DNA from: Maribacter aquivivus
Lineage (GTDB): Bacteria; Bacteroidota; Bacteroidia; Flavobacteriales; Flavobacteriaceae
DNA: 57,517 nt
Reading direction: 5' to 3'
Assembly (NCBI RefSeq): GCF_900142175.1
Contig: NZ_FQZX01000001.1
Span: forward strand, 2,373,825 to 2,431,341
Shown here: in pieces, positions 4,510-30,500 of the stretch
How the letters are laid out: the number at the start of each line of letters is the position of its first letter
Numbering within the stretch: the stretch's first letter is position 1
The notes under the pieces: generated by a model
Database searches by the model: none
What the model saw: only the letters and a program-made list of their open reading frames with translations
What the model was told of the DNA's origin: nothing
Translations under genes and position numbers: made by a program

Positions 4510-4542
4510 CCGATTGATAAGTGTCGTATCTTAATTGATATT
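4510..4542 (-). promoter_or_regulatory. Predicted LytTR direct-repeat site A
   Basis: Plus-strand half-sites ATTGAT at 4513-4518 and ATTGAT at 4534-4539, 21 bp apart, within 12-mers ccgattgataag and ttaattgatatt. They lie upstream of the 131-aa membrane protein and LRR gene. The spacing and RTTKRY core fit the LytTR consensus (two 9-bp direct repeats separated by 12 bp). Confidence 0.5.
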
Positions 4543-4557
4543 CGATACTTTTAGTAG

Positions 4558-5289
4558 CTATTCATTTAAGAGTATAGCCTTTATTTCAGCCTTTCGCCTT
4601 GCGGAAATAGCAACAATGTCATTATTTTTTAAACGGATAGTGTCGTTTTCAAGACTAAGGATATGTCTTTTATTGACTAGAAATGACTGATGAGTTCTTA
4701 TGAAAATATCTTCAGGTAAAAGTTCTTGATAATGTTTTAAGTTTTTTGAAACTAATATAGTCTCACTCTCGGTTACTATTTTAGTATACGACCCATCAGA
4801 TTGACAATAAAGAATATTATCGATTTCTAAAAGATGCATTTTTTTTGCTGTTTTTAGAGCTATTTTTTGAACACTAGATGCTCTGTTGTCTTTTAGATTT
4901 TTTAAAAGTGCTTTAGTCTCCTTCTCAACATACACCATAGATTCTACCCTCTCTAATGTATTTTTTAACTCATCTGGTGCAATGGGCTTTAGTATATAAT
5001 CTAAGGCATTGTACTTAAATGCTCGTATTGCAAATTCGTTGAATGCAGTAATAAAAACAAGTTTAAAATCTATTTGGGGAATTTGCTCTAACAAATTAAA
5101 ACTGCTACCATCTTCAAGCTTAATGTCTAGAAATACCAGGTCTGGTTTACAGTTAGTTAGCATAGTCTTGGCACTAGTAATTGAAGCAGCTTCACCTACT
5201 ACCACATATGTGCTAGATATTAACGAAAGCATTTTTTTAATTAATTCTCTAACGTTGACTTCATCATCTATAATTGCAATTTTAATCAT
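4558..5289 (-). CDS. LytTR-family response regulator
   Basis: 243 aa. The N-terminal receiver domain has the acidic pair D9/D10, the phospho-acceptor D55 (in LVFLDIKLED), a threonine in FITAF and the lysine in LKPI. The C-terminal LytTR DNA-binding domain (about 140-243) carries motifs such as LYCQSDGSYTKI and the late FLVNKRHI. Together these mark a LytR/AlgR-type transcription regulator. Its start overlaps the stop of the histidine kinase by 4 bp (ATGA), the usual layout of a cognate pair. LytTR proteins bind two direct repeats about 21 bp apart. Four such repeat pairs occur in this window, one upstream of its own apparent operon, so autoregulation is likely. Confidence 0.95.
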   Translation of the reverse strand: MIKIAIIDDEVNVRELIKKMLSLISSTYVVVGEAASITSAKTMLTNCKPDLVFLDIKLEDGSSFNLLEQIPQIDFKLVFITAFNEFAIRAFKYNALDYILKPIAPDELKNTLERVESMVYVEKETKALLKNLKDNRASSVQKIALKTAKKMHLLEIDNILYCQSDGSYTKIVTESETILVSKNLKHYQELLPEDIFIRTHQSFLVNKRHILSLENDTIRLKNNDIVAISARRKAEIKAILLNE

Positions 5290-6977
5290 TGGCGTAAGTC
5301 TAAAAAGATGGATACTTTTGTTCCTTTATTATTATCAATTGCTTGTATAGAAAACTTTTTTTCTTCTCCTAAGCCTCTAAGTTTTAGGCGTTTTAAAAAT
5401 ATGTCTATGGCATGTTCACGATTGTCACTTACTTTTTCTTTATTGTAACCAATACCGTTGTCTATAATTTCTATATGAGTATATTTTTCTTGTTCTGTAA
5501 TATTTATTTGAAGTAATCCCTTTTCATTTTTTTGTTTTAAACCATGCTCAATTGAATTTTCAATGAAAGGTTGTAATAACATTGGTGGTAATTTTATCAT
5601 AGAAACCTCAATGTCATCGGTCATATTTATTTCATACTCAAACTTATTTTCAAAGCGTAATTGTTGCGTTTCTATATAGTTCTTTAAAATGTCAAGATCT
5701 TCTTCTAATGTAATTTGTTTTTTATTTACAACATCAAAATTTTGTCTTACTAACTTGGCAAACCTTGTGAGATATGTACTTGACTTTATAGGATCTTCAT
5801 CAAAGAACGTTTTTTGAATTGCAGTAAGCGCATTAAATACAAAATGCGGGTTCATTTGTGTTCTTAGTATTTTTTGTTCTAGCTCTAGTTTTTGCTGTTT
5901 TAGCTCTAATCTTGAATTTCTGTTCTTTTGAAAAACATATAACCCAAGAGCAAGTAAAAAGCTCAAAATTGCACCTAAAATAATTTTGTTCTTTTTATTT
6001 AATTCTAATTCTTTTTTTAAGTTTTCTTGTTCAATGAATTGCTCGTTTTTTCTATTGATCAATTTCATTTTTTCTTCACTTTCATAAGAAGTCAGTAATT
6101 GAGTAACCGAGTCTTTCTTTCTAATGAAATTGGGTATACTTTTGAAATCTTCATCTTTTACGGCAGCTTCAATTAGCACTTCATAGATTTCTTGCTGAAT
6201 TACATAGTGCTCTGTCTGTTCTTCAATAGCTAGCGCCTTTTTGTAAATGGAAATACATTTCTTAGCATCATTTTGTATTAAATACACATAGCCTAAATTT
6301 CTTAGGGCATTGGTATTTAATCTATCAATATCACTATTAAGGGCAATTGCTTTTTCATAATAACAAATTGCTTGTTCATAATTTTCAGTTTGTTCTAGTA
6401 TAAAACCTAGATTGTTATATGAAGCTGACAGCGTCTCTTTATCATCTAAGGCTATTTGTAAATCAATGGCTTGTTTTACATGAGTTATAGACGAATCATA
6501 ATCTCCTGCTAAAAAAGATAGATGACCTAATGAGTTTAAGGTTTTAGCTTCTCCTTTCTTGTCGCCAATCTCACGAAAGAACTTATAAGCGTTATTAGTA
6601 TATATAGCAGCGGTATCTTGCTTTGAAAGCATAGCATAAGAATCGCCCAATAGCATATTTGTTTTAGCTAGGTATTCTTTATTAGCTTCTTTTTCGAATA
6701 AATAAAGCGCTTCATTTAAGCTACCTATAGCTTCAACGTCTTTTTCTAAGGTTGCAAGTAACCGTCCTTTTTCATGAAATAGTATTGCCCTTCTTTTATC
6801 TGAGAAATCTTCAAATTTAATGAGGCTGTCAATTTTTTGAAGCGATGGTCTTAAATTTTCATTTGATATGAAATCTAAAAATTCACTATCGGTTAGTCCG
6901 TTGCCTTTGGTATTTTTTTTGCAACAGGTAAATGAAACAATTACTATCAGTAGAATAAATAATTTGGTATGTTTCAT
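5286..6977 (-). CDS. TPR-containing LytS/YehU-type sensor histidine kinase
   Basis: 563 aa from the ATG at 6977. A TTG 33 bp further upstream is in frame but the ATG gives a clean signal sequence. MKHTKLFILLIVIVSFTCC looks like a lipoprotein or cleavable signal. About residues 40-290 are TPR repeats (LGDSYAML, LGHLSFLAGDYDSS, NNLGFILEQTENYEQA), expected in the periplasm. One membrane span follows at about 331-350, then a coiled coil, then the His_kinase domain with H378 in QMNPHFVFNAL and a HATPase with the N-box FIENSIEHG. The signal is unknown; this architecture in Bacteroidota senses through the TPR part. It forms an operon with the LytTR regulator downstream and probably with the SPFH gene upstream (61 bp gap). 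Confidence 0.93.
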   Translation of the reverse strand: MKHTKLFILLIVIVSFTCCKKNTKGNGLTDSEFLDFISNENLRPSLQKIDSLIKFEDFSDKRRAILFHEKGRLLATLEKDVEAIGSLNEALYLFEKEANKEYLAKTNMLLGDSYAMLSKQDTAAIYTNNAYKFFREIGDKKGEAKTLNSLGHLSFLAGDYDSSITHVKQAIDLQIALDDKETLSASYNNLGFILEQTENYEQAICYYEKAIALNSDIDRLNTNALRNLGYVYLIQNDAKKCISIYKKALAIEEQTEHYVIQQEIYEVLIEAAVKDEDFKSIPNFIRKKDSVTQLLTSYESEEKMKLINRKNEQFIEQENLKKELELNKKNKIILGAILSFLLALGLYVFQKNRNSRLELKQQKLELEQKILRTQMNPHFVFNALTAIQKTFFDEDPIKSSTYLTRFAKLVRQNFDVVNKKQITLEEDLDILKNYIETQQLRFENKFEYEINMTDDIEVSMIKLPPMLLQPFIENSIEHGLKQKNEKGLLQINITEQEKYTHIEIIDNGIGYNKEKVSDNREHAIDIFLKRLKLRGLGEEKKFSIQAIDNNKGTKVSIFLDLRQ

Positions 6978-7038
6978 TTTTATGAACTCAATGTATATTG
7001 ATTTATACAATTTTAGATTTTTTGAAGATATGCTATTA

Positions 7039-8028
7039 TTACATACTATCTAAAATTGCTTTTTTCTTATCTGTGTATTCACTATCTGAAATCAACTCCA
7101 TCTCAAAGAGTTCTTTTAGCTTTTTTAGTTTTATCATAGGACTATCGGTTGCTGGTTGTTGTTCTAAAGAGCCTTGGTTCATGGTTGAATTTCCTTGAGC
7201 GCCAGCATTCAAACCCATTAACATACCTGCTGCACCAGATTCATTGTTAGCGGCATCTCTCATTGCCGCTATTCGTTGCATTTCTGTGTATTCTACACCG
7301 GCAATTTTAGCAGCCAAAACTTCTGCTTGTACGTCTGATATTTTTGCAATTCGGGCTAAAGTATCTTTATCGAACTGAGAACCTTCTATTCTGAAATCTA
7401 AAACTTCAAAACCTAAATCAGTAAAAACAGATGCTGTTTTTTCTTTTGCCTCAACAGCTATAGTATTTAGGTTACTATCAACATCTACATAAGAGAACTT
7501 AGCATTTGCCAAATAATCTGTAATGGGTTGTGTTACCCTTGATATAAAGATTTCTTTTAAATGAGAATGGCAATATATTTCTTGACCAGCTATTACGTTT
7601 TCAAAAAACCATTGTGGTTTTGTTATTCTAATACTGTAATTACCAAATGCAGAAAGTAGTATTGGGAAAGTATAAATAGGGTCTGTGTAAGCAATAGGCA
7701 CTCTTGTACCCCAACGCATATTTAAAATATCTGCTTTGCGATAAAACCAAATACCCATTACATGTTCACTACCATCACGTAAAGAGAGAAACTTTTTTAC
7801 AGAAGTTAAAAAGGGAGTGTTGTCAGATTTTAGGTCGTACGTGCCTTCTTCAACTAAAACACTCTGTACCTTACCTTCATAGGTTAAAATGCAACCTTGA
7901 CCAGGTTGAAGTATTAGTTTTGATGCATTTTTAATTTCATCGCCACTTTCGGTAAACTTAATGAAAAGCTCTTTTTCATTTGGGTTTTCCCATTGTATTA
8001 CTGACCGATATTGGTTTGCTATATTCAT
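7039..8028 (-). CDS. SPFH/band-7 domain protein with C-terminal SHOCT
   Basis: 329 aa. The long SPFH-like region (about 20-250) resembles the family often annotated as virion-core-protein-like SPFH (Bacillus YdjI type). It includes a segment on external signals (GQGCILTYEGKVQSVLVEEG) and the helical EAKEKTASVFTDLGFEV region. A low-complexity linker rich in G, A, N and Q precedes a SHOCT motif at the end (MIKLKKLKELFEMELISDSEY). No membrane span is visible, so it probably associates peripherally with the membrane as a scaffold. It is followed by the histidine kinase and LytTR regulator in the same direction. A LytTR-like repeat pair lies 68-94 bp before its ATG. Family call good; role in envelope stress is inferred. 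Confidence 0.87.
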   Translation of the reverse strand: MNIANQYRSVIQWENPNEKELFIKFTESGDEIKNASKLILQPGQGCILTYEGKVQSVLVEEGTYDLKSDNTPFLTSVKKFLSLRDGSEHVMGIWFYRKADILNMRWGTRVPIAYTDPIYTFPILLSAFGNYSIRITKPQWFFENVIAGQEIYCHSHLKEIFISRVTQPITDYLANAKFSYVDVDSNLNTIAVEAKEKTASVFTDLGFEVLDFRIEGSQFDKDTLARIAKISDVQAEVLAAKIAGVEYTEMQRIAAMRDAANNESGAAGMLMGLNAGAQGNSTMNQGSLEQQPATDSPMIKLKKLKELFEMELISDSEYTDKKKAILDSM

Positions 8029-8092
8029 CTAAATTCTTGTTGTTAAAAAGGCTGTAAAGCAATAATAACCATAGTTTTTATGTTCTACAATT

Positions 8093-8125
8093 CTGATTGA
8101 TAAGCGTTAATATTTAGTTTGTAAA
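8093..8125 (-). promoter_or_regulatory. Predicted LytTR direct-repeat site B
   Basis: Half-sites ATTGAT at 8096-8101 (in ctgattgataag, nearly identical to site A) and GTTTGT at 8117-8122 (in ttagtttgtaaa), 21 bp apart. It is upstream of the SPFH-kinase-LytTR genes, at the same distance from the ATG (68-94 bp) as site C from its gene. Confidence 0.5.
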
Positions 8126-8219
8126 CACTACGAGATAGAAGGTTTTAAGATTTTTATATGCGTTTTATAGAGCGTGAACTCAACTATTTCTAAAAAAAGA
8201 GTTAGCAGCATTTTTAGCT

Positions 8220-8519
8220 TTATATTTCTATCGCATCGCTATTTAATTCTTTTGAGAGTACTTGAGGTTCCTTTTCTAATTGATTAATAGTATAGAATGC
8301 ACTTACCGCAGCTAAAATTAAAGCGGGTAACACTACTATGAAAATATCATTTTCTATATCAGCATCTGTAAACACAAAAATTGAAACTATTGTAGCTATC
8401 TCTACTCCAAACCAAGTAAGAACTAATCTCCAAATCCATTTACTAGGTTTTATATTTTTTTCTTCAGCTATTGTTCTAATTTTTTTAGTAAAATAACCAA
8501 TTGCGAGAATTTCTAACAT
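8220..8519 (-). CDS. Small membrane protein, function unknown
   Basis: 99 aa. A basic N-terminal part (KKIRTIAEEKNIKPSKWIWR) is followed by two hydrophobic segments at about residues 33-50 and 60-78, then a polar tail. The pattern resembles small two-span inner-membrane proteins that often adjoin PH-like or signalling genes in Flavobacteriia. It stands alone, with 190 bp to the SPFH gene downstream and a gene-poor stretch upstream. No catalytic motif is visible. Confidence 0.65.
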   Translation of the reverse strand: MLEILAIGYFTKKIRTIAEEKNIKPSKWIWRLVLTWFGVEIATIVSIFVFTDADIENDIFIVVLPALILAAVSAFYTINQLEKEPQVLSKELNSDAIEI

Positions 8520-8784
8520 AGATACTAATTTTAGGTTTGTGAATTAAATGGAAATATATAACCCTAAAATGCTATTTATATTTCTTTTACCTATAAACAA
8601 TTTATATGCGTAGTTATTTAATTTACAAGTGTAAAGAGGGAGTAGTTATAGCACCAATAAATTACAGAAAACGATGAAAATGACACCCTGGAGAAAGGGG
8701 GCTAGAATCCTTTTTTTATATAAAATAAATATGAGTTTTGCTATGTAAAGGTGAAGGGATAAGTTTAAAAAAGACCAATTTTTT

Positions 8785-8900: not shown

Positions 8901-10514
8901 CTAATGCCGATTCCTTAACATCTTGTAGTAAAATAACACTGTAGAAAAGATATAGAAAATAGAAAGTGCGTCTAAAAAACTAACCGCAATACGAGCTAAA
9001 ACATTATTTATTTTTTTTCTAAATACGACGGAAAGAACAAGGCTTGTACTACTAAATAAAAACAAAATATAAGGAGTACTGCCTAGTAGCAGCGCTTCGG
9101 CTTTTCGCCCGTTTATGACAGATTTTAAACTTTCATTCGCTGTTTTACCGTTGTTGCTTTTTATAGAAGTATCTACACCTAGATTTTCAAAAAAAGTAAA
9201 TTGTTCTTGGTTGCCATTCTGAGCTGCATAGTGTAATATGGTAAAACCTTGTTCATCTTGAAAATCTAAATCTACAGGATACAATGAAATAAAATATTTG
9301 AAGGTTTTTTGCCCATCTTCACCAAATATAAACTTTGCAAGTTCTAGTAAGGTCTTTTTGTTTTTTATTGAATGTATATCCAAACCATTATCAACTAATA
9401 GCTGTATTGCAGATTCATTCTTTTTGGGGAATGTGTTTAAAGCATAAATAGCACTCGCATAAAAATGATTTAATTTATCTTTTTGAAGTAATGATTCATC
9501 TAATGTGAAAATATATTTCATTAAATCTATAGCATTACTATTTATTGCTACTCGTAAGCAATGCTCTAATTCAATATCGCCTTGTCTTGAAATATCATTG
9601 TTGGGTAAATAACCATGTTTAAGAACAGTTTGAAACTTTTTTAAAACTGTTTTTTTTGATGAATTATCAACTACAAGATTTAGATATTCTTCATTATTAA
9701 TGTCAACAACTTGGGCTAAAAGCGAATCTAGCGTTGTAAACTCTTCTAACCGAATTGATTTTATTATTTTTTTTGTTAAAAAAATATCGTCTGCGGTTTT
9801 ACCGTTAACATTTCTTATCGATATATCTACATCCAATTTTTTAAATATATGATAAATACTATCTGAGGCATTTCGCGCAGCTTGATGCAATATAGTTTCT
9901 CCGTTTGGGTGCGTATTATTTAAATTAATACCCATAGAGGCTAATTTCTTAAATGCAGTGATTGCTTCTTTTTCTTTATACCCTTTGTAACAATCTTTAG
10001 CAAATTTAAATACATACTGTTCTGTGCGATAGCTTTTTAGGTCTATACCTAAATCTATAAGAGTTTTTAATGCCGAAGGTTCTGTAAGAGGGTTTTCTTT
10101 AAGTTCGGTATAGGCTCTCTGAAAAATTTCAGTTTGGTTATCCTTATAATCATTCTTAATATTCCATTCTGGTTGGGTTGCTAAAAAGGAGATTACTTCT
10201 GTATTCTTACTAACTATAGCGGAATAAAAAGCACTCAAATACTCATATTCATCTTGTTTATAACCGCTTTTTAATAGAAGATTATAATTCTGTTTAACAT
10301 GTTCTATGTTCGAATTTAAGGTTGCTTTATATAGTAACTCTTCAGAATTGTTTAATGCGGCTCCTTCGTTTATTAAAGTGACAACTTGACTATGCGTACC
10401 ATTTTCTAAGGCTTCTGATAAATCATTAGACTTATTTTGCCCAATCATAATTTGACTCGCAAAAATTAATGCTATCAGAATATTTTTAAGTTGTCCTACT
10501 TTTTTAAAATTCAT
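8901..10514 (-). CDS. Secreted/membrane ankyrin-repeat protein
   Basis: 537 aa with a signal peptide ending near IMIGQNK. Recognisable ankyrin repeats include NGETILHQAARN followed by D.SIRN.NGKTADD (about 203-245) and QGFTILHYAAQNGN followed by D.SIK.NNGKTANES (about 423-465). More degenerate helical repeats lie between them. The C-terminus has two hydrophobic segments (about 478-496 and 507-527), so the repeats probably face the periplasm on a membrane anchor. It follows the 762-aa lipoprotein gene by 17 bp. Its last 20 or so residues may be out of frame (see the small ORF at 8785-8895). Ankyrin repeats imply protein binding; the partner is unknown. Confidence 0.85.
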   Translation of the reverse strand: MNFKKVGQLKNILIALIFASQIMIGQNKSNDLSEALENGTHSQVVTLINEGAALNNSEELLYKATLNSNIEHVKQNYNLLLKSGYKQDEYEYLSAFYSAIVSKNTEVISFLATQPEWNIKNDYKDNQTEIFQRAYTELKENPLTEPSALKTLIDLGIDLKSYRTEQYVFKFAKDCYKGYKEKEAITAFKKLASMGINLNNTHPNGETILHQAARNASDSIYHIFKKLDVDISIRNVNGKTADDIFLTKKIIKSIRLEEFTTLDSLLAQVVDINNEEYLNLVVDNSSKKTVLKKFQTVLKHGYLPNNDISRQGDIELEHCLRVAINSNAIDLMKYIFTLDESLLQKDKLNHFYASAIYALNTFPKKNESAIQLLVDNGLDIHSIKNKKTLLELAKFIFGEDGQKTFKYFISLYPVDLDFQDEQGFTILHYAAQNGNQEQFTFFENLGVDTSIKSNNGKTANESLKSVINGRKAEALLLGSTPYILFLFSSTSLVLSVVFRKKINNVLARIAVSFLDALSIFYIFSTVLFYYKMLRNRH

Positions 10515-10531
10515 TTTGTTTGATTAATGAA

Positions 10532-12820
10532 CTATTGCGCCGTATACAGCTTAAAATAACTACACTCACTAATAATCATATCATAGAAATCTGTAGATGA
10601 ATACTCTTCTTTTAACGTTTTGAAGCTTTTATATTGGGGTAAATTAAATGTGTAATATTCATTCTGTTTTACCTCAAAAGTTTCTGAAGCGCCTACGTTA
10701 TAAAAACGATTTAATTCGCACTTTGCCATTAAATATAAACACCGCGCATTTAGTTCCTTATCTGTAGAAAGGTCTATTGTATTTTGATAATAACCCATAG
10801 CTACAGTACTCATGTCAAAATAGTTTTTGTCATGTAGATATATGTTAGATAAATTATAGTTTTCTTTATTTTTAATTATCGCATCTGCTTCTTTAATTTG
10901 GTCATTGTACATGTAATTATAACTACCACCGTTTGTATTACTTGTTAATAAACCACGGTAATAACCAGTGTTAGATATATTGAAGTAATAATTGCCTAAT
11001 AAATAGTTGGCTAATTTTACTTTCCACTGCTTTTCATCATGCCTTAATCTCTCTAAAGCAATCAAATTTTCTGCTAATTGTTTTCTGTTGAATTTAGCTG
11101 TAATAAAAGGAAATGCTTTATACACCTGATCCACCATAACTTCACTTTCTAAACAGTCAAAGCATTCCATTATGTTGTTACTGAATATTAGTGCTGGTAT
11201 AGGTTTAGCACCTACATAGGTTTTGTTTTTATTAAAAAAAATTAACGCCATTTCTGGGTTCTTTTCGTATAAATAGAAAACACCTTTTTGATAGTTGATA
11301 TAATCTAAATAATTTACATTTTCACTAGTATTTACTTTAAGCAAATACTTCTCATAATCACTTTTATCAGGTTTTAGATAAAACCTCTCTAAATCGTCTA
11401 AAAGTACTAATGATTGAATTTTGTTTGTTTTTTCTATAGTATTATGAACTAGAAAAGCTTTTGCAATTTTGCCATTATCAAAATAGGTATGGGCAATTTT
11501 ATCTAAAATTAAGTACCGCCAATCGTTTTCATCATTCCATATACTATTGTCTTTTATTGGGTTGTTCAATAAGATTTTATTGATGTAGTTTTCATTTTCT
11601 GGGCTAATGGTTTTCCAACTAAAGACCTGGTAAACAATGCTCAATATTTTCTTTTGATCAGAGAATGTTTTGACTCCTTTTAATTTATTTTCAGCCGCAG
11701 TTATGTCTTTGTTTATAAACGAAAGGTATGAGCTTGATAATTTCCAAAAATCTTTATTTTTAATAGTAGCAGAAGTCATTTGTTGTTCAGCTATTTGTAA
11801 TAAATTTTCATGTTTTTTATTTGCTAAATAGGGGAGTTCCTTTTTATGCTCATAGCTATCTGTTGACCAAACTTCGCGCTCTACATTACTTAAAGCACGC
11901 ATAAAGAGAAGTTCTACTCGGGCATCATTTGCGTCTAGTTTAATGAATTTTTTAATGTTATTTACTTCATCTGAAAAATCTCGTAGACTACGAATTAGCA
12001 GTAAGTCTTTTTCATCTTCAATTCCTTTTGAATAATGAGACCCATCTACGTTTTTAAAAGTGCAAAAATTAAAACTATTATAAGACGATTTTTTTCTATC
12101 AATACTTTTGTTCAGCACTTTGGTAAAATAATATGCAGCAATGTCATAATTTCCTGAAGAGTAATGGCAACCTGCAACTTGGTCTAATATGTAAAAATAT
12201 ATTTCATTTTTAGGTACATTATTTTCAATCGTATTTTTAAAAAATACAATAGCATCACTATAATTTTTTGTGTAATGCAGTGCCCTAATTATTTGGTAAT
12301 AATATCTTGCTTTTAGTTGTTCGTCGCTTATTGTACCTATTAGCGTATTAGCTTCGGCAACCAATTCTTGAGCATCTAACGTCTCATATTCTGACCTTAA
12401 CAAAGCTGCATCATAGTCCCAAGTACTTACTGCGCTTCTATGAGAGAATACCTCACTACATTTTTGCGCAAACTCTAAATAGTTTTTGACATCTTTTTCT
12501 AAATTAGATTTTTTGTTTTTCCAATCAAAATCAGGATAATTATAAACCGCCTTTTCTATCTCTGAAGTAGTCCAGTTGGTAAGCATACTTTTCCAAAGTT
12601 GTACATTTCCTTTTGGGTAAACTTTTTTAGAGTTTTCATCATAGTAATAATGCTCTTCATAAAAATGGCTGTACTCATCGCGTAAAAAAGGATAAAATTC
12701 GTCTGCAGAAATATTAGTTTGTTTAAACAGATTATAAAAGCCACCATACCATTCTCCGCCACCACAAGCTAATAGTATAGAGGTGAAGAATAGCATAATA
12801 CATGTAAATAAGTTCTTCAT
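10532..12820 (-). CDS. Large lipoprotein with TPR-like helical repeats
   Basis: 762 aa. The lipobox LLACGGG puts the lipidated Cys at residue 19. The mature part starts with an aromatic-rich segment (EWYGGFYNLFKQ). It continues as helical repeats in the TPR style (YYYQIIRALHYTKNYSDA, VAGCHYSSGNYDIAAYYF) and ends with further tyrosine-rich helices. No enzyme motif was seen. The start overlaps the stop of the 340-aa lipoprotein by 4 bp (ATGA), so the two are translationally coupled and likely act together at the membrane. It probably shares a transcript with the ankyrin gene. I do not recognise a named family. Confidence 0.8.
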   Translation of the reverse strand: MKNLFTCIMLFFTSILLACGGGEWYGGFYNLFKQTNISADEFYPFLRDEYSHFYEEHYYYDENSKKVYPKGNVQLWKSMLTNWTTSEIEKAVYNYPDFDWKNKKSNLEKDVKNYLEFAQKCSEVFSHRSAVSTWDYDAALLRSEYETLDAQELVAEANTLIGTISDEQLKARYYYQIIRALHYTKNYSDAIVFFKNTIENNVPKNEIYFYILDQVAGCHYSSGNYDIAAYYFTKVLNKSIDRKKSSYNSFNFCTFKNVDGSHYSKGIEDEKDLLLIRSLRDFSDEVNNIKKFIKLDANDARVELLFMRALSNVEREVWSTDSYEHKKELPYLANKKHENLLQIAEQQMTSATIKNKDFWKLSSSYLSFINKDITAAENKLKGVKTFSDQKKILSIVYQVFSWKTISPENENYINKILLNNPIKDNSIWNDENDWRYLILDKIAHTYFDNGKIAKAFLVHNTIEKTNKIQSLVLLDDLERFYLKPDKSDYEKYLLKVNTSENVNYLDYINYQKGVFYLYEKNPEMALIFFNKNKTYVGAKPIPALIFSNNIMECFDCLESEVMVDQVYKAFPFITAKFNRKQLAENLIALERLRHDEKQWKVKLANYLLGNYYFNISNTGYYRGLLTSNTNGGSYNYMYNDQIKEADAIIKNKENYNLSNIYLHDKNYFDMSTVAMGYYQNTIDLSTDKELNARCLYLMAKCELNRFYNVGASETFEVKQNEYYTFNLPQYKSFKTLKEEYSSTDFYDMIISECSYFKLYTAQ

Positions 12821-13839: not shown

Positions 13840-13928
13840 TTTAATTTGTTTTGCTAGTAGGTTTATTAAGTACTATTCTTCTCATTTTCAAAAGCCACTT
13901 CATGTTTATCTAGAGCACTAATTTTTCT

Positions 13929-15176: not shown

Positions 15177-15185
15177 TTTTTTGAT

Positions 15186-15977: not shown

Positions 15978-15987
15978 TTTCTTTATT

Positions 15988-20256: not shown

Positions 20257-20261
20257 TATAG

Positions 20262-23111: not shown

Positions 23112-23184
23112 TTTTATTTTTTATTTCTTGATGTTTTAGATTCGATTAAGGCTTGGTTTTTAAACAAAAAAGATCTGTTTACTT

Positions 23185-24825
23185 TTAGCAAGTCTTATAT
23201 GCTTTTTTGATGAAATCAATAACCATTGGGCTTCCAACACAATCGCCGTAAGCTTCTAAATAGACATCAGATGGATTATTACTAATTAACCAATCACCAG
23301 TTTCATTATGTTTTCTTAGAATGCCTTCATCTAAAATATCTCCTTTTTCTGCTGTCATAGATGGGTTGTCTTCTGATAATATTTTAATGGAATTCCCTTT
23401 AATTACAACACGTACTTTTTCACTCATGGTTTGTTCTTGATACTCTGCATAAGATATGTCATAAATGTATTCTCCATCAGCAGGAATTTCTTCATGCTTT
23501 ACCTCTAACTCATTTACTATATCGTTTAGACCATCTTCAAATTGCTGTCTTTGTCCTTTGAATGCATTTGGAGCTACATCCGTTTTTTGCACTGGTCTTC
23601 TGAGCCTATCTTGTTGCTTCTCTCTAGATGAAATAGGCTGGTGTTCTTTTAGGTGTATTGCTGTTTTATACAAATTGTCTCTATCTAAAATCAAAATATC
23701 ACCGTCCATAGCCTGAATTCCATATGACTCACCAGAAAATAGCACCTCTTCATTTTCTGATGTCAAGAAAGGTTTAATCGTGGCATCTTCTATATTAAAT
23801 TCATAAACAAAGGTATCTCTGTAATAATCTGAAGATATACTTGTTGTAATTAATGCAGATTTTTGGGTAAAAAGAATATCGGAAATGTTGGCTTTATGTC
23901 CGTCACCGTCTTGCGGCATGTCAATTTTACGCCATTCTTTTCCACCATTCTCTGTATAGAATAAATCGCCTCCTAGACCGCCTATTAAGCCAGTATTTTG
24001 GTTTAAGAATGCAATAGAGTTGAGGTTTACATAATCTTCACCGTCTGTCTCAAACAGTAGTTGCCAAATTAAACCGCCATTAGTACTTTTATAGCTTCTA
24101 CCAGAAAAAGTTACTACGATTATTTCCTTTTCTGAAAACGCAATAAAGTCTGAAATTCCTTCTGTTTCTTTTTCTAAGCCTTTGTGTTCAATAGTAGCCC
24201 AAGTTTTACCTGCATCTACGGTTTTTAGAATGACAGCAAAACTTTCGTCTTCTCCATTGATATATCCATAACCGGTAATAAAACCAACTTGCTCGTTAAC
24301 AAAGCGTATTTTGTAATATTTGTTAAAGAAATAACCTCTTTTTTCATAGAGATCTTTTGTATTAAATACACTCCATTTTTCTCCTAAATCTGGTGTGCTA
24401 AAAATATATTCGCTATCACCTATAACAAAGATGTTGTCACCTGAAAATGCTGCAGAATAAAACGGATTACCGAATCTAGAAAAACGATTTTCTAACCACG
24501 TTTTACCGCAATCTTTGGTAATTCTTGTTATTAATCCTGCGCCACCAACGATTACCCCAATATCTTTGTTTTTAAAAGACATACCATTATACATATGAAA
24601 CCCTGTTTCTTCTATATGATGTAAAACAGAAACATTTTGGTTGGTTGAAGCATTTAAAAAGCTTGTTCCTTTTTGGGTAATGGTATCTTTAGTTACAAAC
24701 TCATTGTCTAGAACTAATTCTACCTTGTTAAAGCCAGTAAGTGGTTTTTCTTCTTGATTGTTTTGCCCTTTACAAGAGTGTAGAACAACTAGTAATGTAA
24801 GCATTAGGAACTGTACTATTTTCAT
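23185..24825 (-). CDS. Ycf48/BNR-type beta-propeller lipoprotein
   Basis: 546 aa. The lipobox LHSCKG is followed by a propeller of BNR/Ycf48-like units, each with a hallmark such as TKDCGKTWLENRF, TPDLGEKWSVF, TVDAGKTWATI, STNGGLIWQLL, TENGGKEWRKI. This fold occurs in photosystem II assembly factor Ycf48 and in many secreted Bacteroidota proteins that are not photosynthetic. From about residue 385 a separate C-terminal region begins (QRQQFEDGLNDIVNELEVKH, then SEKVRVVIKGNSIKIL) with two Cys near the end. The envelope role is unknown. The upstream 111 bp contains an inverted repeat TATAACC/GGTTATA without a T-tract. Confidence 0.85.
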   Translation of the reverse strand: MKIVQFLMLTLLVVLHSCKGQNNQEEKPLTGFNKVELVLDNEFVTKDTITQKGTSFLNASTNQNVSVLHHIEETGFHMYNGMSFKNKDIGVIVGGAGLITRITKDCGKTWLENRFSRFGNPFYSAAFSGDNIFVIGDSEYIFSTPDLGEKWSVFNTKDLYEKRGYFFNKYYKIRFVNEQVGFITGYGYINGEDESFAVILKTVDAGKTWATIEHKGLEKETEGISDFIAFSEKEIIVVTFSGRSYKSTNGGLIWQLLFETDGEDYVNLNSIAFLNQNTGLIGGLGGDLFYTENGGKEWRKIDMPQDGDGHKANISDILFTQKSALITTSISSDYYRDTFVYEFNIEDATIKPFLTSENEEVLFSGESYGIQAMDGDILILDRDNLYKTAIHLKEHQPISSREKQQDRLRRPVQKTDVAPNAFKGQRQQFEDGLNDIVNELEVKHEEIPADGEYIYDISYAEYQEQTMSEKVRVVIKGNSIKILSEDNPSMTAEKGDILDEGILRKHNETGDWLISNNPSDVYLEAYGDCVGSPMVIDFIKKAYKTC

Positions 24826-24936
24826 ATTATTTTTTATTTATAAAACAACAGTTAGCGGTATAACCTAATTTTTTTGTTCGGTTATAATTATAGAAAAAAA
24901 CTGAATTAGTATGGTTATATGAGGTTCTCATAGCAC

Positions 24937-26913
24937 TTATTCTTCTTTTTTCATCATCAATTGAACTAATGCGACTAAGGCTGCACCCATAAGACCTACA
25001 ATCATAAACGGAAAGAATAAAATATCCACGATTTTTTTAAAAACAGATTTATTATTTTTTTTCTTTCTTTTAATAACCTTGACTCCAAGGTCATCTAAAG
25101 CATCTTCGGCTTCCTCACATTTTGTTTCGTAAAATTCCCAATCATCTATATCTTGTAAGTAGTCTACCGTTTTTTGAAATGCTTTGGCAGCTTTATCCTT
25201 TTGGTCTGTGGCATTGTAGCAAAGACCTAAATAATAAGCTACTAAACCTACTTCTTTAGGTTCTTGTTCTTGTATTATTTCCTGTTCAAGAAACCATTCC
25301 ATTTCTGGTATATATTTATCATATGCTTTTTCTTCTGTTACAGCATATTCATAAAATATTTTCCCTGAAAATATTACATAATGGGCAGCATCTTTAGCCC
25401 CTTGTCCTATCTTGTTATAAAGTTTTTTTGCCTTAAAATAATTTGCTTCTGCATTTTCCAGGTCTTTTAAACCAACATAACATTTTACTAAGCGTAAAAA
25501 GTATTTTTGTCTCTCGTTTATACTTAACTCTTTGCCATATTGCTTAAAAACTGTTTGTGTACTTTCTATTGATTTTTGATAATTTTCACCTTCAAAATAA
25601 TCATAAGATGCATTTTCAATATTTTCCATAAATGGACTCATTTGAAAACCTTCTATGTGAATACTTCCCGCTTTGTCATACAGCAGTTCTTTCTCTTTGT
25701 CATATTTAAGAGTCTCAGCATAATTACCCAATGCATTTGCATAATTATTACATAGCATGGCAAATAAATGGGGTTGGTTGTTGAGGGTGTCTCCTTTACC
25801 AAATAGCAGGTAATCTTTATATTGTTGATAGCCTACTTCGCCATACTGTATTGCTATTTGGGCTATTTTTTTCTTCTTCTTGTTTTTTTTGGTTTTATTG
25901 TATAGAATAGAAAAAGTGGATAATGTATTGTACATATGTACAGAAGGACCGGAAAATTTAAAAGGAAGACTTAAAAAATCATTATTAGATTTTTTTGCCG
26001 CTTTTTTAACTCTATCTAAGTCGGTATAAGCAGTATGGTTTTCGCAATTAAAAAGAAGTTTAAAAGCTTCATATGCCTTTACATAGTTTTTTGTATCAAA
26101 GTAATGTGTATTTGCAATAGCAGTTACTAATAATGCATTGTTTGGATAAATTTCTAACCACTTTTCAACTTCTGGATAATACTTTTCGTAAAAATCTAGT
26201 TTATCCGTTATTTTAAAATGATTTTTTTCATTTCTAATAATATTAAATAATAAGCCCAGTAATTGTGGATGCTTATCTAGCTTTTTAGCATCGTACATTT
26301 CTTTTAGTTTGATGCCGTATTGCAATCGATAACCATCTTCGCTATCAAAAGACCAAGTGTAATGTGTTAGTAGAATTTCTTCTGCAATCTTATAATTTTC
26401 TTTTTCTAAATGTTTTAAGCCTACAAAGCCATTGTTATAAAAAAACGGATATTTTTTATAAGCTTTATACCATAGGTCTAAGGCAACATCTGTTTGCTTA
26501 TTATTATGCTTTAAAAGTGCTAATTTATCTAGTAACTCACTTTCTTTTTCATCCTTTATATAACGTTTCTTATAAAGAGTTTGTATTTCTACCAATTGCT
26601 CCTCAATAACTTCAGCTGCTTTATCTGGCATTGAAAGCGAATCATTATAGACCCAGAAAAGCCAATCATAACCAACCATTTTATCTTGTTTAAAGTGGTC
26701 GTTTTCTATTATAAAAGTTGCGTCCTCTATAATTTGAGATGTGTTTTCAAAAATATCAGTATTTAAACGCATACGCAGCGTTAGCATATCAATATCAAAA
26801 GGGTTTTGTTTTAATATTTCTTTGATAATTGCCAAAGCCTCAAAACCTAGTTCTTGCTGATTAGCATCTTGGTTATCTAACTTATCTAGTATGTTCTCTA
26901 ATTCCTTATTCAT
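24937..26913 (-). CDS. TPR protein with C-terminal membrane anchor
   Basis: 658 aa with no signal peptide. It is built of helical repeats with TPR features (ANTHYFDTKNYVKAYEAF, LVKCYVGLKDLENAEANYF, LAYYLGLCYNATDQKDKAAKAFQ, motifs approximate). Then come a Lys-rich run (KRKKKNN), a hydrophobic segment at about 632-652 (FPFMIVGLMGAALVALVQL) and a final KKEE. A cytoplasmic TPR domain attached to the inner membrane by its C-terminus is the best reading. It is 23 bp downstream of the discoidin-like gene in the transcript order, so co-expression is likely. It probably binds protein partners; none is identifiable. Confidence 0.8.
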   Translation of the reverse strand: MNKELENILDKLDNQDANQQELGFEALAIIKEILKQNPFDIDMLTLRMRLNTDIFENTSQIIEDATFIIENDHFKQDKMVGYDWLFWVYNDSLSMPDKAAEVIEEQLVEIQTLYKKRYIKDEKESELLDKLALLKHNNKQTDVALDLWYKAYKKYPFFYNNGFVGLKHLEKENYKIAEEILLTHYTWSFDSEDGYRLQYGIKLKEMYDAKKLDKHPQLLGLLFNIIRNEKNHFKITDKLDFYEKYYPEVEKWLEIYPNNALLVTAIANTHYFDTKNYVKAYEAFKLLFNCENHTAYTDLDRVKKAAKKSNNDFLSLPFKFSGPSVHMYNTLSTFSILYNKTKKNKKKKKIAQIAIQYGEVGYQQYKDYLLFGKGDTLNNQPHLFAMLCNNYANALGNYAETLKYDKEKELLYDKAGSIHIEGFQMSPFMENIENASYDYFEGENYQKSIESTQTVFKQYGKELSINERQKYFLRLVKCYVGLKDLENAEANYFKAKKLYNKIGQGAKDAAHYVIFSGKIFYEYAVTEEKAYDKYIPEMEWFLEQEIIQEQEPKEVGLVAYYLGLCYNATDQKDKAAKAFQKTVDYLQDIDDWEFYETKCEEAEDALDDLGVKVIKRKKKNNKSVFKKIVDILFFPFMIVGLMGAALVALVQLMMKKEE

Positions 26914-26936
26914 ATGCTACTAATTAATCTCATATA

Positions 26937-27791
26937 TTAATACACATCTAATCCCGAAAAATATATTTCTGTTATAGCGGTATCATCGTATTTATCACCT
27001 TTGTAAACACTTATGATTTCAAACCTTATTGTATCTCCTGATTCTATTTCTTTATTATAAGATTTGAATGTGTTACCATTCTCATCTTTGTATTTATACC
27101 AACTTGTACCATCGTCATTATAGCCGCGGTATGTTATTTCAAAACCTATTGTTGGTATTTCATAAACCTGCTCTGCATACACATCTCTAAGATTTAAAAT
27201 GGCAAATTCTGTATCGTTTACACATACTTTTAATTGCCTTACTCGGGAGTTATTTTTCCAGGTAGTCTTGTCTTTGATATATCCATTTGCAATCTTAATA
27301 GTTGTAATACGTGGATGCTGCGCAGGGAAGCTAAACTCAACATATTCACCAATTCCATCTCCTTCAACACCCTCAACCCATGCTGTGGCATAACTCAAGT
27401 CACTTATACTAGAGTAGTCGTATAAATTGCCATTTTGCGGTTGTAAAGCAGATGATACTTTGCAGAACGCAGTAGTATCATCTAAATGGCTTATGTTATA
27501 TCCTTCATCTGTCCAATCATCGCCGCAAACAATACTCCACATGTTTTCACATGCTTCACTGTAACCTAACGCTCCACATTTGCTTGTCAATTTATTTCTT
27601 TCGTCTTCATCATAATTGTTCCAAACGGTCATATCTGTGAATAATGATTCACATGTAGACCATAATTCTTTTTTATCTTCAAAATTATATGCTGTTTCTA
27701 TTCTAGGCTCAAGAGTAGGTGGCTCTTGAGTAAATACTGATAATTGAACGATAAAGTATATCGAGAAGAAAAGTAGTATGGTTCTTTTCAT
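26937..27791 (-). CDS. Secreted protein with NADase-type glycan-binding/discoidin-like domain
   Basis: 284 aa with a signal peptide (MKRTILLFFSIYFIVQLSV). A Cys-rich middle part (ELWSTCESLFTD, TSKCGALGYSEACENMW, IVCGDDW) is followed from about residue 112 by a beta-sandwich-like region. That region holds the ATAWVEGVEGDGIGEYVEF, ITTIKIANGYIKD and VRQLKVCVN motifs typical of the discoidin-like domain annotated as NADase-type glycan-binding. Expected to bind sugars or surfaces outside the cytoplasm. It shares the transcript direction and short spacing with the TPR anchor protein. No catalytic NADase region is present. Confidence 0.75.
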   Translation of the reverse strand: MKRTILLFFSIYFIVQLSVFTQEPPTLEPRIETAYNFEDKKELWSTCESLFTDMTVWNNYDEDERNKLTSKCGALGYSEACENMWSIVCGDDWTDEGYNISHLDDTTAFCKVSSALQPQNGNLYDYSSISDLSYATAWVEGVEGDGIGEYVEFSFPAQHPRITTIKIANGYIKDKTTWKNNSRVRQLKVCVNDTEFAILNLRDVYAEQVYEIPTIGFEITYRGYNDDGTSWYKYKDENGNTFKSYNKEIESGDTIRFEIISVYKGDKYDDTAITEIYFSGLDVY

Positions 27792-27839
27792 TACTAATTG
27801 GTTTTTAGAATGGTTTATTAATAAATAGGGGTTTCTACT

Positions 27840-28670
27840 TTAATATTCTTCCTTTATTTCTCCATTTTTTAATAGGTGTAAAAGAGGTTTTGAATCTTCT
27901 TTTTTAAGGTCGATTTTATAAAACTCATTACCGCGGTTTATAGTGGTGTCAGGGAAAATGCCACCTTTAGTAATGTACTTTGTTATAGCTTCTTTATCAG
28001 ACTCATGTAAAGGCTCTTGTAATCTTTTTTTGCCATCACTAATAATGATGTCTCCTTCTAATACCAATGGAGTTTTAGCCAAGCGTTTTCTCATATAATA
28101 AAATCGATTATTATCCATAATAAATTCATTATAGCCTTCAGAAACTTCTCCTGAATATAGTTCTACCGTATTAAAAGCGGGAGTTTCACGTAACTGGCTA
28201 GCGGTTAGGTTAACCTTTATATCTTTTATGGTTTTACTCTTAAACTTAATTGAAACTTCTTCAAAACTACCTGTGACTTCTGGGTTTGTGACCCACTCTT
28301 GATCTACCTTGAAAAATACTTTTTCTCTGTGATGTTCAGGACTTATGTAATTAATGGATATGGAGTCTTTTAACTGGTTATTATGCCTTGCATATAAAAT
28401 ATAAGGTTGTACTAACTCTTTGTTTGGCTGTAATTTTATTTCATTGCCCTCTATGCTATAGGTGCCATAAACTTCTAAATCTACACTCCCAAAAATGGCA
28501 TAGTAATGAAATAGATTATTGTCTAATAGGTATAGTTTAGTCGGCATTTCCATCTGGGACAAATCATAAAAACCTTCTAAAGTTTTGGAGTTATTTATTG
28601 AATTTTCTTGTGATTGCTGCCCAACCATTATTTGAAGACATAAGAAGTATATAACTAGTACGTATTTCAT
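27840..28670 (-). CDS. Secreted protein of unknown function
   Basis: 276 aa with a signal peptide ending near IMVGQQS. The mature protein is beta-rich with no recognisable motif. A pattern of short aromatic strands (LFHYYAIFGSVDLEVYGTY) is followed by a C-terminal region with an EAITKYITKGGIFPD segment. It lies between the discoidin-like gene and a terminator-like hairpin at 28743-28762, so it may be the first gene of the downstream transcription unit. I do not recognise a family. Confidence 0.65.
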   Translation of the reverse strand: MKYVLVIYFLCLQIMVGQQSQENSINNSKTLEGFYDLSQMEMPTKLYLLDNNLFHYYAIFGSVDLEVYGTYSIEGNEIKLQPNKELVQPYILYARHNNQLKDSISINYISPEHHREKVFFKVDQEWVTNPEVTGSFEEVSIKFKSKTIKDIKVNLTASQLRETPAFNTVELYSGEVSEGYNEFIMDNNRFYYMRKRLAKTPLVLEGDIIISDGKKRLQEPLHESDKEAITKYITKGGIFPDTTINRGNEFYKIDLKKEDSKPLLHLLKNGEIKEEY

Positions 28671-28742
28671 GTATTTGCAATAATTGGATTTGCGGTTCTA
28701 ATTTGATGGTGTTAAAAGTGCCATGTACCTATAACAAATAAA

Positions 28743-28762
28743 GCTGAATAAAATTATTCAGC
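28743..28762 (-). terminator. Hairpin terminator after the zinc-ribbon operon
   Basis: Arms GCTGAATAA and TTATTCAGC (9 bp, perfect) with a 2-nt loop. On the minus strand it is followed by TTTATTTGTT. It lies 40 bp beyond the stop of the 184-aa gene and upstream of the 276-aa gene, as expected for an intrinsic terminator of the zinc-ribbon operon. Confidence 0.65.
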
Positions 28763-28801
28763 CTTATTCTTACTTATAGTAAATAGATAGTGTGTAATCT
28801 C

Positions 28802-29356
28802 TTAAAAATCAATATCATCGCTTAAGTTAGCGCTCTGGTCTTGGTACATCTCATTAAAGTGTGCTTCCCACTTTTCAGTTAGTCTTCCTTGTTTTTTCAT
28901 AAGTTTCTGAATTTTACCAGAATTAGGATCTTCTTGCATGGCTTTTTGAATTCGCCCGCCCCAGTGCATACCTAATTGAGAAAATTGGGTAATAGAAATG
29001 CCATATTCTTTTTGAAAATCTATATCAATACCTACATCTTGAGCTATAGCAAAATGCCTTTCCATTTTAATATGATCGCTCCACTTAGGATATTTTGCCA
29101 GAGCTACCTCAGGACCTTCTGCTCCGCCTTCAGCATTGGCAAACTTACCTTGTTTTGGATTCATAAAAACTTCACCAAAAAACTTCATATCGTCATGACT
29201 TAATTCTGCCATTTTACCATTCCATTGGTTTTTAGTGTCTTCCCATACTGGCAACTCTATACCTAGAATTTCACAAATTTTTTCGGTAGGCATACCTGCT
29301 GCCATATTTGCTGATGCACAGGCATAGTCTCTAAAAGTTACTCCGTTAATTTCCAT
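28802..29356 (-). CDS. DUF6620-like cytoplasmic protein
   Basis: 184 aa, no signal or membrane segment. It starts MEINGVTFRDYACASANMA and has Trp/Gly-rich helical segments (GIELPVWEDTKNQW, LGMHWGGRIQKAM) that resemble the uncharacterised DUF6620 family. It is the last gene of a three-gene unit with the two zinc-ribbon proteins (12 bp gap to the preceding gene) and is followed by a terminator-like hairpin. This links it to the predicted LytTR site D regulon. Molecular function unknown; the family name is a recollection from sequence resemblance. Confidence 0.65.
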   Translation of the reverse strand: MEINGVTFRDYACASANMAAGMPTEKICEILGIELPVWEDTKNQWNGKMAELSHDDMKFFGEVFMNPKQGKFANAEGGAEGPEVALAKYPKWSDHIKMERHFAIAQDVGIDIDFQKEYGISITQFSQLGMHWGGRIQKAMQEDPNSGKIQKLMKKQGRLTEKWEAHFNEMYQDQSANLSDDIDF

Positions 29357-29368
29357 ATTTGGTTGGTT

Positions 29369-30226
29369 TTAATTGTTATATAGATCGCTCCTCTTTTTAT
29401 TGTCATAGAAATAGAGGTTCATTTTTACACTTACATCGTGTTTAATGTTCTCTTGGTATTCTGGTAAGTAGGAGGCTCTTTCTGTAAAATAATTTGTCCA
29501 GAAAGTATTTTCTTTAATTTCCCAATTATCATAGGCTTTTGCTAAAGGTGTTTTATCATCACCCTTGTTTAAACTGCGAAAACTTTGGCAATGTTTATGA
29601 GCTGCATTTTTTTCATCCCACTCTTTCAATACTTTGTGTTTAGCTATGTTATCTACCACCCAACGTATTTCGGTGATTTTGTCACTAGGTACAAAGGTGT
29701 TTACCGTATTACAATAGCCACAGCCTACATAATGTGATCTAAAAATGTCTTTTTTAACCTCTAGTTTACCACTGCATTGCGAACAATGAAAATCTTCATT
29801 TAATAATTGAATAGCATGGTTGTAAAATTCTTGAGCAATTTTGCCTTCGAGTTCAATCTCAAACCGCTCTATTCTAGTGCTAAATGAATACGATAATTCT
29901 GTTCCTTTTTGGTCTTGGTCAATAATATCCCACCGTTCAACATAATCTAACATTTGTGGTTGTACTTTATCATCAAACGTTTGCTCTATTTTGTCCCCTA
30001 AAGCCTCTAACTGAGATTTGATTCCGCTCCATGCAGTCATATTTGCAGACATGTCATAGTTGTTTGCTTCTAAATTGTCTATTACAGCTTCTTCTGCATG
30101 TACTAAAGACTCGTTGAAACGTGTTTCCATTTTTGCTAGAAATGTATCCCACTTCTCAACCAAGGCATGGTATTCTGGCTGGTTTTTTCTTTCTTCTTTA
30201 CTATCTTTCTTAGAAAATCCAAACAT
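29369..30226 (-). CDS. Zinc-ribbon-containing cytoplasmic protein
   Basis: 285 aa. The N-terminal helical, acidic part (about 1-140) precedes a treble-clef/zinc-ribbon pattern of CSQC and CGYC about 20 residues apart (about residues 148-175). A further helical part follows (about 180-285). Four Cys in two CxxC pairs should bind one zinc. The ATG overlaps the stop of the 66-aa zinc-ribbon gene in TAATG, so they are translationally coupled and may form one complex. There is no export signal. Possibly an adaptor. No named family recognised. Confidence 0.75.
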   Translation of the reverse strand: MFGFSKKDSKEERKNQPEYHALVEKWDTFLAKMETRFNESLVHAEEAVIDNLEANNYDMSANMTAWSGIKSQLEALGDKIEQTFDDKVQPQMLDYVERWDIIDQDQKGTELSYSFSTRIERFEIELEGKIAQEFYNHAIQLLNEDFHCSQCSGKLEVKKDIFRSHYVGCGYCNTVNTFVPSDKITEIRWVVDNIAKHKVLKEWDEKNAAHKHCQSFRSLNKGDDKTPLAKAYDNWEIKENTFWTNYFTERASYLPEYQENIKHDVSVKMNLYFYDNKKRSDLYNN

Positions 30227-30426
30227 TATATATCGGTTTTAATCTCGTTGTCAATATCCATAAACTTAAAGTCGCAATAATCACAAGTAGTTAAATTGGT
30301 GTCTTTAGGTCTTGCGGCGCCACAATTTTCACACTTTCTAGAACTGGTTTCAGAAGTTGTATTCGTTCCCCAATCTTTCTGGGTTTCGTTGGCGTTTTTT
30401 ACTATTTTTTTAAAAGGATTTGACAT
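30226..30426 (-). CDS. Small zinc-ribbon protein
   Basis: 66 aa. An N-terminal Lys/Asn-rich segment precedes CENC, then CDYC 16 residues later, a compact zinc-ribbon of the kind fused to or paired with membrane-stress proteins. It is the first gene of the operon 30426-28802 and overlaps the next gene by one base (TAATG). Site D and an inverted repeat lie in its upstream region. In Bacillus the ydjF-ydjG-ydjH-ydjI cluster links a PspA, a zinc-ribbon and an SPFH protein. The same protein types recur here under one predicted regulator, but this parallel is only an inference. Confidence 0.75.
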   Translation of the reverse strand: MSNPFKKIVKNANETQKDWGTNTTSETSSRKCENCGAARPKDTNLTTCDYCDFKFMDIDNEIKTDI

Positions 30427-30427
30427 A

Positions 30428-30470
30428 TCGGTATAAATATATCGTATAGTTATACCTGATATTATACCGA
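30428..30470 (-). promoter_or_regulatory. Inverted repeat upstream of the zinc-ribbon operon
   Basis: Arms TCGGTATAA (30428-30436) and TTATACCGA (30462-30470), perfect 9 bp, separated by 25 bp. It lies just before the ATG at 30426 and overlaps the edge of site D. Could be an operator or a leader hairpin. Confidence 0.4.
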
Positions 30471-30500
30471 GTTGACAAACGTGGTAGTTTAGTTTGTATT
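30467..30500 (-). promoter_or_regulatory. Predicted LytTR direct-repeat site D
   Basis: Half-sites GTTGAC at 30471-30476 and GTTTGT at 30492-30497, 21 bp apart, 45-71 bp before the ATG of the 66-aa zinc-ribbon gene. The distal unit ttagtttgtatt matches sites B and C; the proximal one is weaker. Confidence 0.42.

Follow-up and report, generated by a model that had tools for sequence, protein, structure and literature searches.

A putative LytTR two-component regulon marked by 21-bp paired half-sites upstream of five units in Maribacter aquivivus

Introduction

In the part of PMC6193735 that deals with them, promoters of the LytTR Regulatory Systems (LRS), among them those of HdrR and BrsR of Streptococcus mutans, are described as carrying two 9-bp direct repeats with a 12-bp spacer; the repeats have a 21-bp phase, lie 4-11 bp upstream of the -35 region and are autoregulatory. 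A literature search at title and abstract level, with subscription literature mostly outside its scope, turned up no LytTR regulon of several units with a defined box in Bacteroidota; the closest precedent among the results was an in-silico pair of Bacteroides operons (PMC6193735). Here, paired half-sites with a 21-bp period are described from Maribacter aquivivus, in the last 57.5 kb of contig C1 (NZ_FQZX01000001.1; 57,517 nucleotides, called the window below) of the 4.58 Mb genome. The original prediction for this window had proposed one LytTR regulon on the basis of such pairs, with the regulator's own operon among the targets, and this proposal was supported both by conservation and by a sharpened definition of the box. 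The window very probably holds a self-contained LytTR two-component regulon, a reading that is well supported by comparative genomics, with box-binding putative.

Results

Five boxes were located on the minus strand, which carries all genes under discussion:

Site A: box 4512-4544 (27-bp match 4513-4539), minus strand, in the gap that separates the LytTR stop codon from the next gene.
Site B: box 8095-8127 (27-bp match 8096-8122), minus strand, preceding the SPFH-kinase-LytTR operon.
Site B2: box 8599-8631 (27-bp match 8600-8626), minus strand, the fifth box, preceding the 99-amino-acid gene 8220-8519.
Site C: box 17413-17445 (27-bp match 17414-17440), minus strand, preceding the propeller-like/hydroxylase unit.
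Site D: box 30470-30502 (27-bp match 30471-30497), minus strand, preceding the zinc-ribbon unit.
Weaker pair at site C: 17392-17424, minus strand, formed by the second half-site and a third half-site 21 bp on; pair score 14.8.

Sites A to D had been proposed before and proved to be exact matches to RTTKRY-N15-RTTKRY, in the same orientation as the genes downstream; B2 (8600) had been overlooked, so that the total is five rather than four. The 27-bp match lies 89 bp from the start codon at A (to 4423) and 67 bp from it at B (to 8028) and C (to 17346), while at D the distance is 44 bp to an open reading frame (ORF) of 66 amino acids and 244 bp to the larger zinc-ribbon gene. Aligned in gene orientation over 27 bp, sites A, B, C, D and B2 read RYMAAYTARNNNNNNACGNWTRYMAAY. 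Site C is a perfect 12-bp direct repeat, as had been stated, with AATACAAATTAG present twice, 21 bp apart. When 33 boxes from this and related genomes were laid out, the half-site was found to comprise 12 bp, CRNWTRYMAAY plus one base, with a 21-bp period. The RTTKRY core from which the prediction started is present in the sites, but forms merely the downstream half of this half-site, and it is the upstream, ACRCTTAT-like part that resembles published LytTR repeats. Outside the pattern used for finding the boxes, a C five bases before the core was conserved in 16 of 17 boxes and a T one base before it in all 17. By a hand count that includes the short ORF, five of the eight intergenic gaps of at least 100 bp between 4,424 and 30,592 carry a box.

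The operon behind site B encodes the predicted regulator and its partner:

LytTR response regulator: 4558-5289, minus strand, identified by Pfam; proposed box binder, in one clade with box-linked relatives (97/82).
TPR histidine kinase: 5286-7010, minus strand, PF06580 at 69 bits; the regulator's partner.
SPFH protein, first gene of unit B: 7039-8028, minus strand, Band_7_1 (PF13421) at 91.4 bits, with a SHOCT match below the cut-off.

The assignment of 4558-5289 to the LytTR regulators was confirmed by matches to PF04397 (71.5 bits) and to the receiver domain PF00072 (69.6 bits), both over the cut-off. The features of a two-component system were found together: a LytTR and a receiver domain in one protein, an adjacent PF06580 kinase, 21-bp direct repeats and the placement of these at promoters.

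The loose pattern RTTKRY-N15-RTTKRY, which had been put forward for use on a genome scale, did not serve that end. It matched seven times in the window against 6.33 expected (standard deviation 2.61), and 46 of 100 shuffles reached seven matches; as a genome scan it was rejected as uninformative, its count being at chance level. Five of the seven matches (A-D and B2) have further positions in common. With at most one mismatch, the 27-bp pattern occurred genome-wide at six places (four exact, two with one mismatch), five of them the window sites, and the reversed pattern, used as a control, at one. The sixth place, C3:71471, lies inside an ORF of 302 amino acids and was set aside. At two mismatches, 42 places were found against 14 for the reversed control, and 22 of the 25 places of this level examined outside the five sites (12 others were not) fall within ORFs. 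Equal frequency at random AT-rich sites had been named as an outcome that would speak against the regulon, and the sharpened box is not frequent there. The pattern was derived from the sites themselves, and the independent tests are therefore conservation, spacing and the downstream element.

In Flavobacterium psychrophilum, a promoter element TAnnTTTG is placed at -12 to -5 in the part of PMC9723704 consulted for it. Two such elements stand clearly behind boxes of the window:

-7 element TATTATTG: 8060-8067, minus strand, 5/6 letters, 28 bp after box B.
-7 element TATATTTA: 30434-30441, minus strand, 5/6 letters, 29 bp after box D.

TAnnTTTG with at least 5/6 letters was present 28-31 bp after the box in 13 of 17 boxes from outside the closest genus relatives (shuffle mean 0.85) and, overall, after 18 of 33 boxes (shuffle mean 1.72); the largest count among 500 shuffles was six, in the 17-box and the 33-box sets alike. 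One box in this count, L120:5261, is absent from the profile R1 described below. The repeats lie just upstream of the core promoter, which within the window is clear for B and D only. If the F. psychrophilum promoter map is valid here, the core of the box would fall at about -67 to -41, near the LytTR repeats given in PMC6193735, and the geometry of box and promoter agrees with that of the LytTR promoters presented in the same source.

Position by itself is no proof of activation, and the boxes might also serve to repress, with a regulator bound upstream of the promoters silencing the cluster until signalled; AgrA, for one, is described in the relevant part of PMC4227749 as a repressor of bsaA too, acting at a site just downstream of the promoter. 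In the present promoters, however, box and -7 element do not overlap, the gap from the end of the box being 28-29 bp, and the box has the placement of the activator repeats in the LytTR promoters covered by PMC6193735. Repression is accordingly judged unlikely, and activation is the reading followed below.

Comparison with orthologous regions, which had been proposed as a check, showed that the 21-bp pairs are retained at orthologous positions. An SPFH ortholog (E<=1e-50) was present in 3 of 36 genomes of the genus. These three contained 6, 10 and 6 box matches with at most one mismatch, compared with 0-3 in the other 33, and among the 36 the clusters of boxes were exclusive to the three with the SPFH-kinase-LytTR operon. 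A LytTR ortholog (88-90% identity) was found in the same three genomes, other matches at E<=1e-45 being 38% identical. SPFH-like proteins with 24-28% identity were taken to belong to another family and left aside, and an exact box match in G215 was treated as chance, since it lies inside an ORF on the opposite strand. In G232 all five sites, A to D and B2, have kept their places relative to the genes. G223 keeps A and B, a weak B2 before the same gene and three copies of site C; its locus is larger, with nine of ten matches within about 56 kb and several further genes with a box of their own. The 27-bp core of site D is identical in G221, G223 and G232, and the 378-bp stretch running from beyond site D up to the following gene shows 84-87% identity among them.

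The three nearly identical copies of site C in G223 stand in L161 (G223:C1:2216000-2235999) at positions 2207, 5165 and 7318, behind a homolog of the 912-amino-acid gene, behind a 66-amino-acid piece of the same and before the propeller-like gene. Judged from the sequence, they are a local duplication of promoter plus cargo.

Beyond the genus, an SPFH alignment search of genome contigs yielded 43 loci. Among the loci of at least 10 kb, intergenic matches to a matrix built from the five window sites alone were present in 6 of the 8 that have a kinase-LytTR pair, as against 3 of the 26 that lack one (p 0.0014). From boxes found with this matrix a sequence-only profile, R1, was made (22 boxes with their -7 region), which gave, over the window plus the 43 loci, 30 matches at E<=0.01. 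All 30 have their midpoint outside ORFs of at least 90 amino acids and precede an ORF on the same strand; 14 are not training rows, one of the 14 being a copy of such a row. R1 matches occurred in 7 of 8 versus 2 of 26 loci of at least 10 kb (p 5e-5) and in 7 of 8 versus 5 of 35 when all 43 loci were taken (p 1.7e-4), Fisher tests that are not independent, since R1 was trained partly on the kinase-bearing loci tested. In these tables L121 was scored as lacking a kinase, though one reaches its contig end, and L133 as having the pair, though its LytTR protein lies outside the clade described below. Site A stands at the same place in L116 and L137, and an R1 match directly precedes the SPFH gene in L114, L115, L120, L121 and L137, and precedes it with one short gene in between in L116 and L119.

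R1 was also run on whole genomes, with strict filters by which weak matches are lost in the family and class searches. In the own genome all five R1 matches are the five window sites. Among 397 genomes of the family, 14 had an R1 match (E<=0.001), 19 had the kinase (E<=1e-50) and six had both (p 1.2e-5). Four of the six supplied training sites; in the other two, G420 and G423, the matches stand directly behind LytTR genes, and a further match in G258, at a place outside training, precedes the kinase. Five of 395 genomes of the class, besides the own genome, had an R1 match; in G542, of another family, it lies directly behind a LytTR gene adjoining a kinase, and in G607 directly before a gene weakly similar to the kinase.

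Box-like promoters of one other genus were also seen in L198/L252 (G348:C7:84091) and L202 (G123), before a gene for an unnamed 334-amino-acid protein and before one for a multihaem cytochrome; the 20 kb read around the G348 site showed no homolog of the kinase or of LytTR. L256 (G414:C244) contains, at 1-500, the end of a kinase 62% identical to that at 5286-7010, followed by a weak box (17.4 bits), with no LytTR gene in the 3 kb read.

The stretch behind the LytTR stop codon was read in 29 loci, in each of which it was outside training. The set excludes the window, L118, L137 and L162 (training), L113 (a close relative), the fragment L237 and, as copies of loci already included, L193, L194, L225, L241, L244, L245-L247, L250, L251, L253 and L255; it includes L116, L117 and L133, whose other stretches supplied training boxes. 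Spacings from 12 to 36 bp were scored, and the mean for the best half-site pair was positive only at 21 bp (+11.2), the other 24 all giving negative means. The observed pair score beat all 100 shuffles in 21 of the 29 loci, a figure that overstates the number of independent events because of near relatives in the set (L189-L192, L231-L233, L174/L175). Three further loci (L226, L189, L192) have a pair at 20 bp, read by eye, and five fail, four with distant kinases and L249 with a box before the kinase instead. TAnnTTTG (at least 5/6 letters) was found near the expected offset in 22 of 29, a count made without a shuffle control.

These data bear on whether the boxes are chance AT-rich matches or duplicated promoter DNA, devoid of regulatory meaning. 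The loose pattern is indeed at chance level, and the three near-identical copies of site C in G223 would suit duplication. Against this, the 21-bp phase and the distance to the -7 element are fixed in diverged sequences, as compared with shuffles, and the R1 matches all lie outside ORFs, compared with a position inside ORFs for 22 of 25 weaker places of the pattern in the own genome. Chance or mere duplication is hardly credible as an account of the boxes as a whole.

The genome has 18 LytTR matches. Behind the 17 other LytTR genes no pair above 8.6 was found, and the best R1 score there did not exceed 10 bits. Of the 26 proteins labelled as box-linked in a tree of 46 LytTR proteins, 25 form one clade (97/82), which includes none of 16 own paralogs. 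Members of a sister clade have, behind the box, a gene for a 136-amino-acid protein without similarity to the one here, from which it is inferred that the switch is older than the SPFH cargo. The box, its conservation, its spacing, the promoter element and its recurrence beside the LytTR genes of one clade were all established by computation.

Several observations weigh against a regulon governed by this one pair. The strongest single one against a simple one-regulator account is G221, which keeps site D and the zinc-ribbon operon, but in which no SPFH, kinase or LytTR ortholog was found at the thresholds used; recent loss or a different reader would account for this. In the window, sites A, B2 and C have poor -7 elements, with 4/6 letters at the expected place. 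When the four training-site genomes were removed, the family comparison became borderline (2/15 versus 8/378, p 0.05). Eight of the 14 R1-match genomes are without a kinase at E<=1e-50, among them G348 (37.6 bits, the most notable), G181 and G123; in at least two of the eight, G154 and G351, the matches lie inside long ORFs. Conversely, 13 of the 19 kinase genomes have no R1 match, partly because the boxes of the sister clade differ. L048, one of the 17 other LytTR loci, has a nominally unusual pair (8.6; 2/200 shuffles), and the LytTR protein of L133 falls outside the clade, its genome having a clade member elsewhere (L248).

Part of this would be accounted for if the box were read by a different regulator common in these genomes, either another LytTR paralog or an unrelated factor: G221 has the identical site D core without an ortholog of 4558-5289, a recognised kinase is missing in the eight genomes mentioned, and the own genome has 18 LytTR matches. 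This is considered improbable, since in several families the boxes immediately follow LytTR genes belonging to one clade and are absent behind the 17 other LytTR genes here, and since in the genus box clusters accompany this kinase-LytTR pair. The LytTR protein of the cluster is retained as the likely reader.

The remaining genes of the units were as follows:

First gene of unit A: 4028-4423, minus strand, 131-amino-acid protein with long hydrophobic stretches, as read from the sequence and not from a membrane predictor.
Second gene of unit A: 3-4016, minus strand, LRR/DUF285 surface protein, extending past the window edge.
Gene behind site B2: 8220-8519, minus strand, 99-amino-acid hydrophobic protein.
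Unit C: 8901-17346, minus strand, propeller-like protein (below the Pfam cut-off), fatty-acid hydroxylase, DKNYY protein, two unnamed proteins and an ankyrin protein.
First gene of unit D: 30226-30426, minus strand, 66-amino-acid ORF with four cysteines, zinc-ribbon-like.
Remainder of unit D: 17518-30226, minus strand, 285-amino-acid zinc-ribbon protein, DUF6620 protein, an unnamed protein, NADase_transloc, 658-amino-acid protein, BNR protein and two long unnamed proteins (949 and 912 amino acids).

The four units named as targets at the outset each have a box, with the corrections that unit D starts with the short zinc-ribbon ORF and that B2 adds a fifth. The AlphaFold model of the zinc-ribbon protein 29369-30226 had a mean confidence score (pLDDT) of 86.9 and no PDB match at E<=0.001; that of the 131-amino-acid protein was poor (59.5). 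PADLOC returned weak matches alone, to ankyrin, TPR and receiver stretches, and Rfam no match. Near related SPFH genes, a trypsin-SHOCT protein and a TY-Chap-like protein just under the cut-off (L137) and a WGR protein (L118) were encoded. In L116, L118 and L124 a start similar to that of the 66-amino-acid ORF (NPFK) can be read after the box. Elsewhere in the window, 46880-55333 (plus strand) encodes a 2817-amino-acid protein with IgGFc_binding, 14 TSP3 repeat stretches and a CHU_C type IX secretion signal, and 35477-36928 (minus strand) a Schlafen/AlbA_2 protein with a RecG-like C-terminal ATPase domain.

Discussion

In the mechanism that we propose, the TPR histidine kinase (5286-7010) would phosphorylate the LytTR response regulator (4558-5289), two protomers of which would bind the two direct half-sites CRNWTRYMAAY, 21 bp or two helical turns apart. 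The boxes would lie just upstream of the -33 region of sigma-A-type promoters, where the bound regulator may recruit RNA polymerase, and the five boxes would jointly switch on the five units A, B, B2, C and D, a block of about 30 kb with membrane-associated and surface genes. Box B, on the SPFH-kinase-regulator operon, would provide positive feedback. We infer both binding by the 4558-5289 protein and activation rather than repression.

What the regulon puts out may be an envelope or membrane-stress response built on the SPFH protein, a suggestion for which we see somewhat less than even chances and which is made by analogy, because the SPFH protein and zinc ribbons recall the pspA-ydjGHI operon of Bacillus subtilis. 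Still more tentatively, a clade of TPR-kinase/LytTR pairs of the Bacteroidota might use a promoter module (two 12-bp half-sites, 28 bp, TAnnTTTG) that is portable and comes to stand, by copying, before incoming genes, making a growing island of 30-56 kb with SPFH, zinc-ribbon, chaperone-like and surface genes into one PspA-independent envelope-defence regulon on a single switch. The fixed distance between box and promoter would allow sequence-based prediction of targets for the whole regulator clade, and an uncharacterised set of SPFH and zinc-ribbon genes would be tied to one deletable switch in a marine bacterium of a genus, Maribacter, that is not known as a pathogen.

Of the known systems, the LRS are close in their repeats, since sequences such as ACCACTTAT/ACCGCTTAT, as given in the portion of PMC6193735 used here, resemble the ACRCTTAT part of the present half-site. 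According to the same portion of PMC6193735, LRS regulators are paired with a membrane protein, whereas here the partner is a TPR histidine kinase; unlike in the LRS, a CAAY extension lengthens the half-site and the promoter belongs to the TAnnTTTG type. In place of a membrane protein standing in for a histidine kinase, a receiver domain and an adjacent kinase were found in this operon.

AgrA differs from the present regulator in its signal, its sequence and its target genes. A likeness lies in its action at P2/P3 of Staphylococcus aureus, where, according to the part of PMC4227749 concerned with these promoters, a LytTR regulator occupies direct repeats that lie immediately upstream of promoters. 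Nearer in lineage, repeats TCCGGTATTCA-11 bp-ACCGGAAATCA upstream of a TATCTTTG promoter have been proposed in silico for Bacteroides thetaiotaomicron and B. ovatus (PMC6193735, Table 3). These, however, have a 22-bp phase and belong to a membrane-bound LytTR protein with an NfeD/DUF2154 partner, and the case as presented in that part of PMC6193735 is one operon in each of two species, with no multi-unit regulon described there.

The pspA-ydjGHI operon is alike in combining an SPFH protein, YdjI, with a zinc-ribbon partner in one envelope-stress operon, but is under sigma-W and contains PspA, as far as the parts of PMC8581546 and PMC11237479 on this operon go. Here the Band-7/SPFH protein was found (PF13421) and PspA was not found in the cluster, the single PF04012 match of the genome being on contig C2. 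Three features are new in comparison with these systems: the longer half-site, a promoter grammar built on TAnnTTTG, and the connection of most units in a growing island to a single box.

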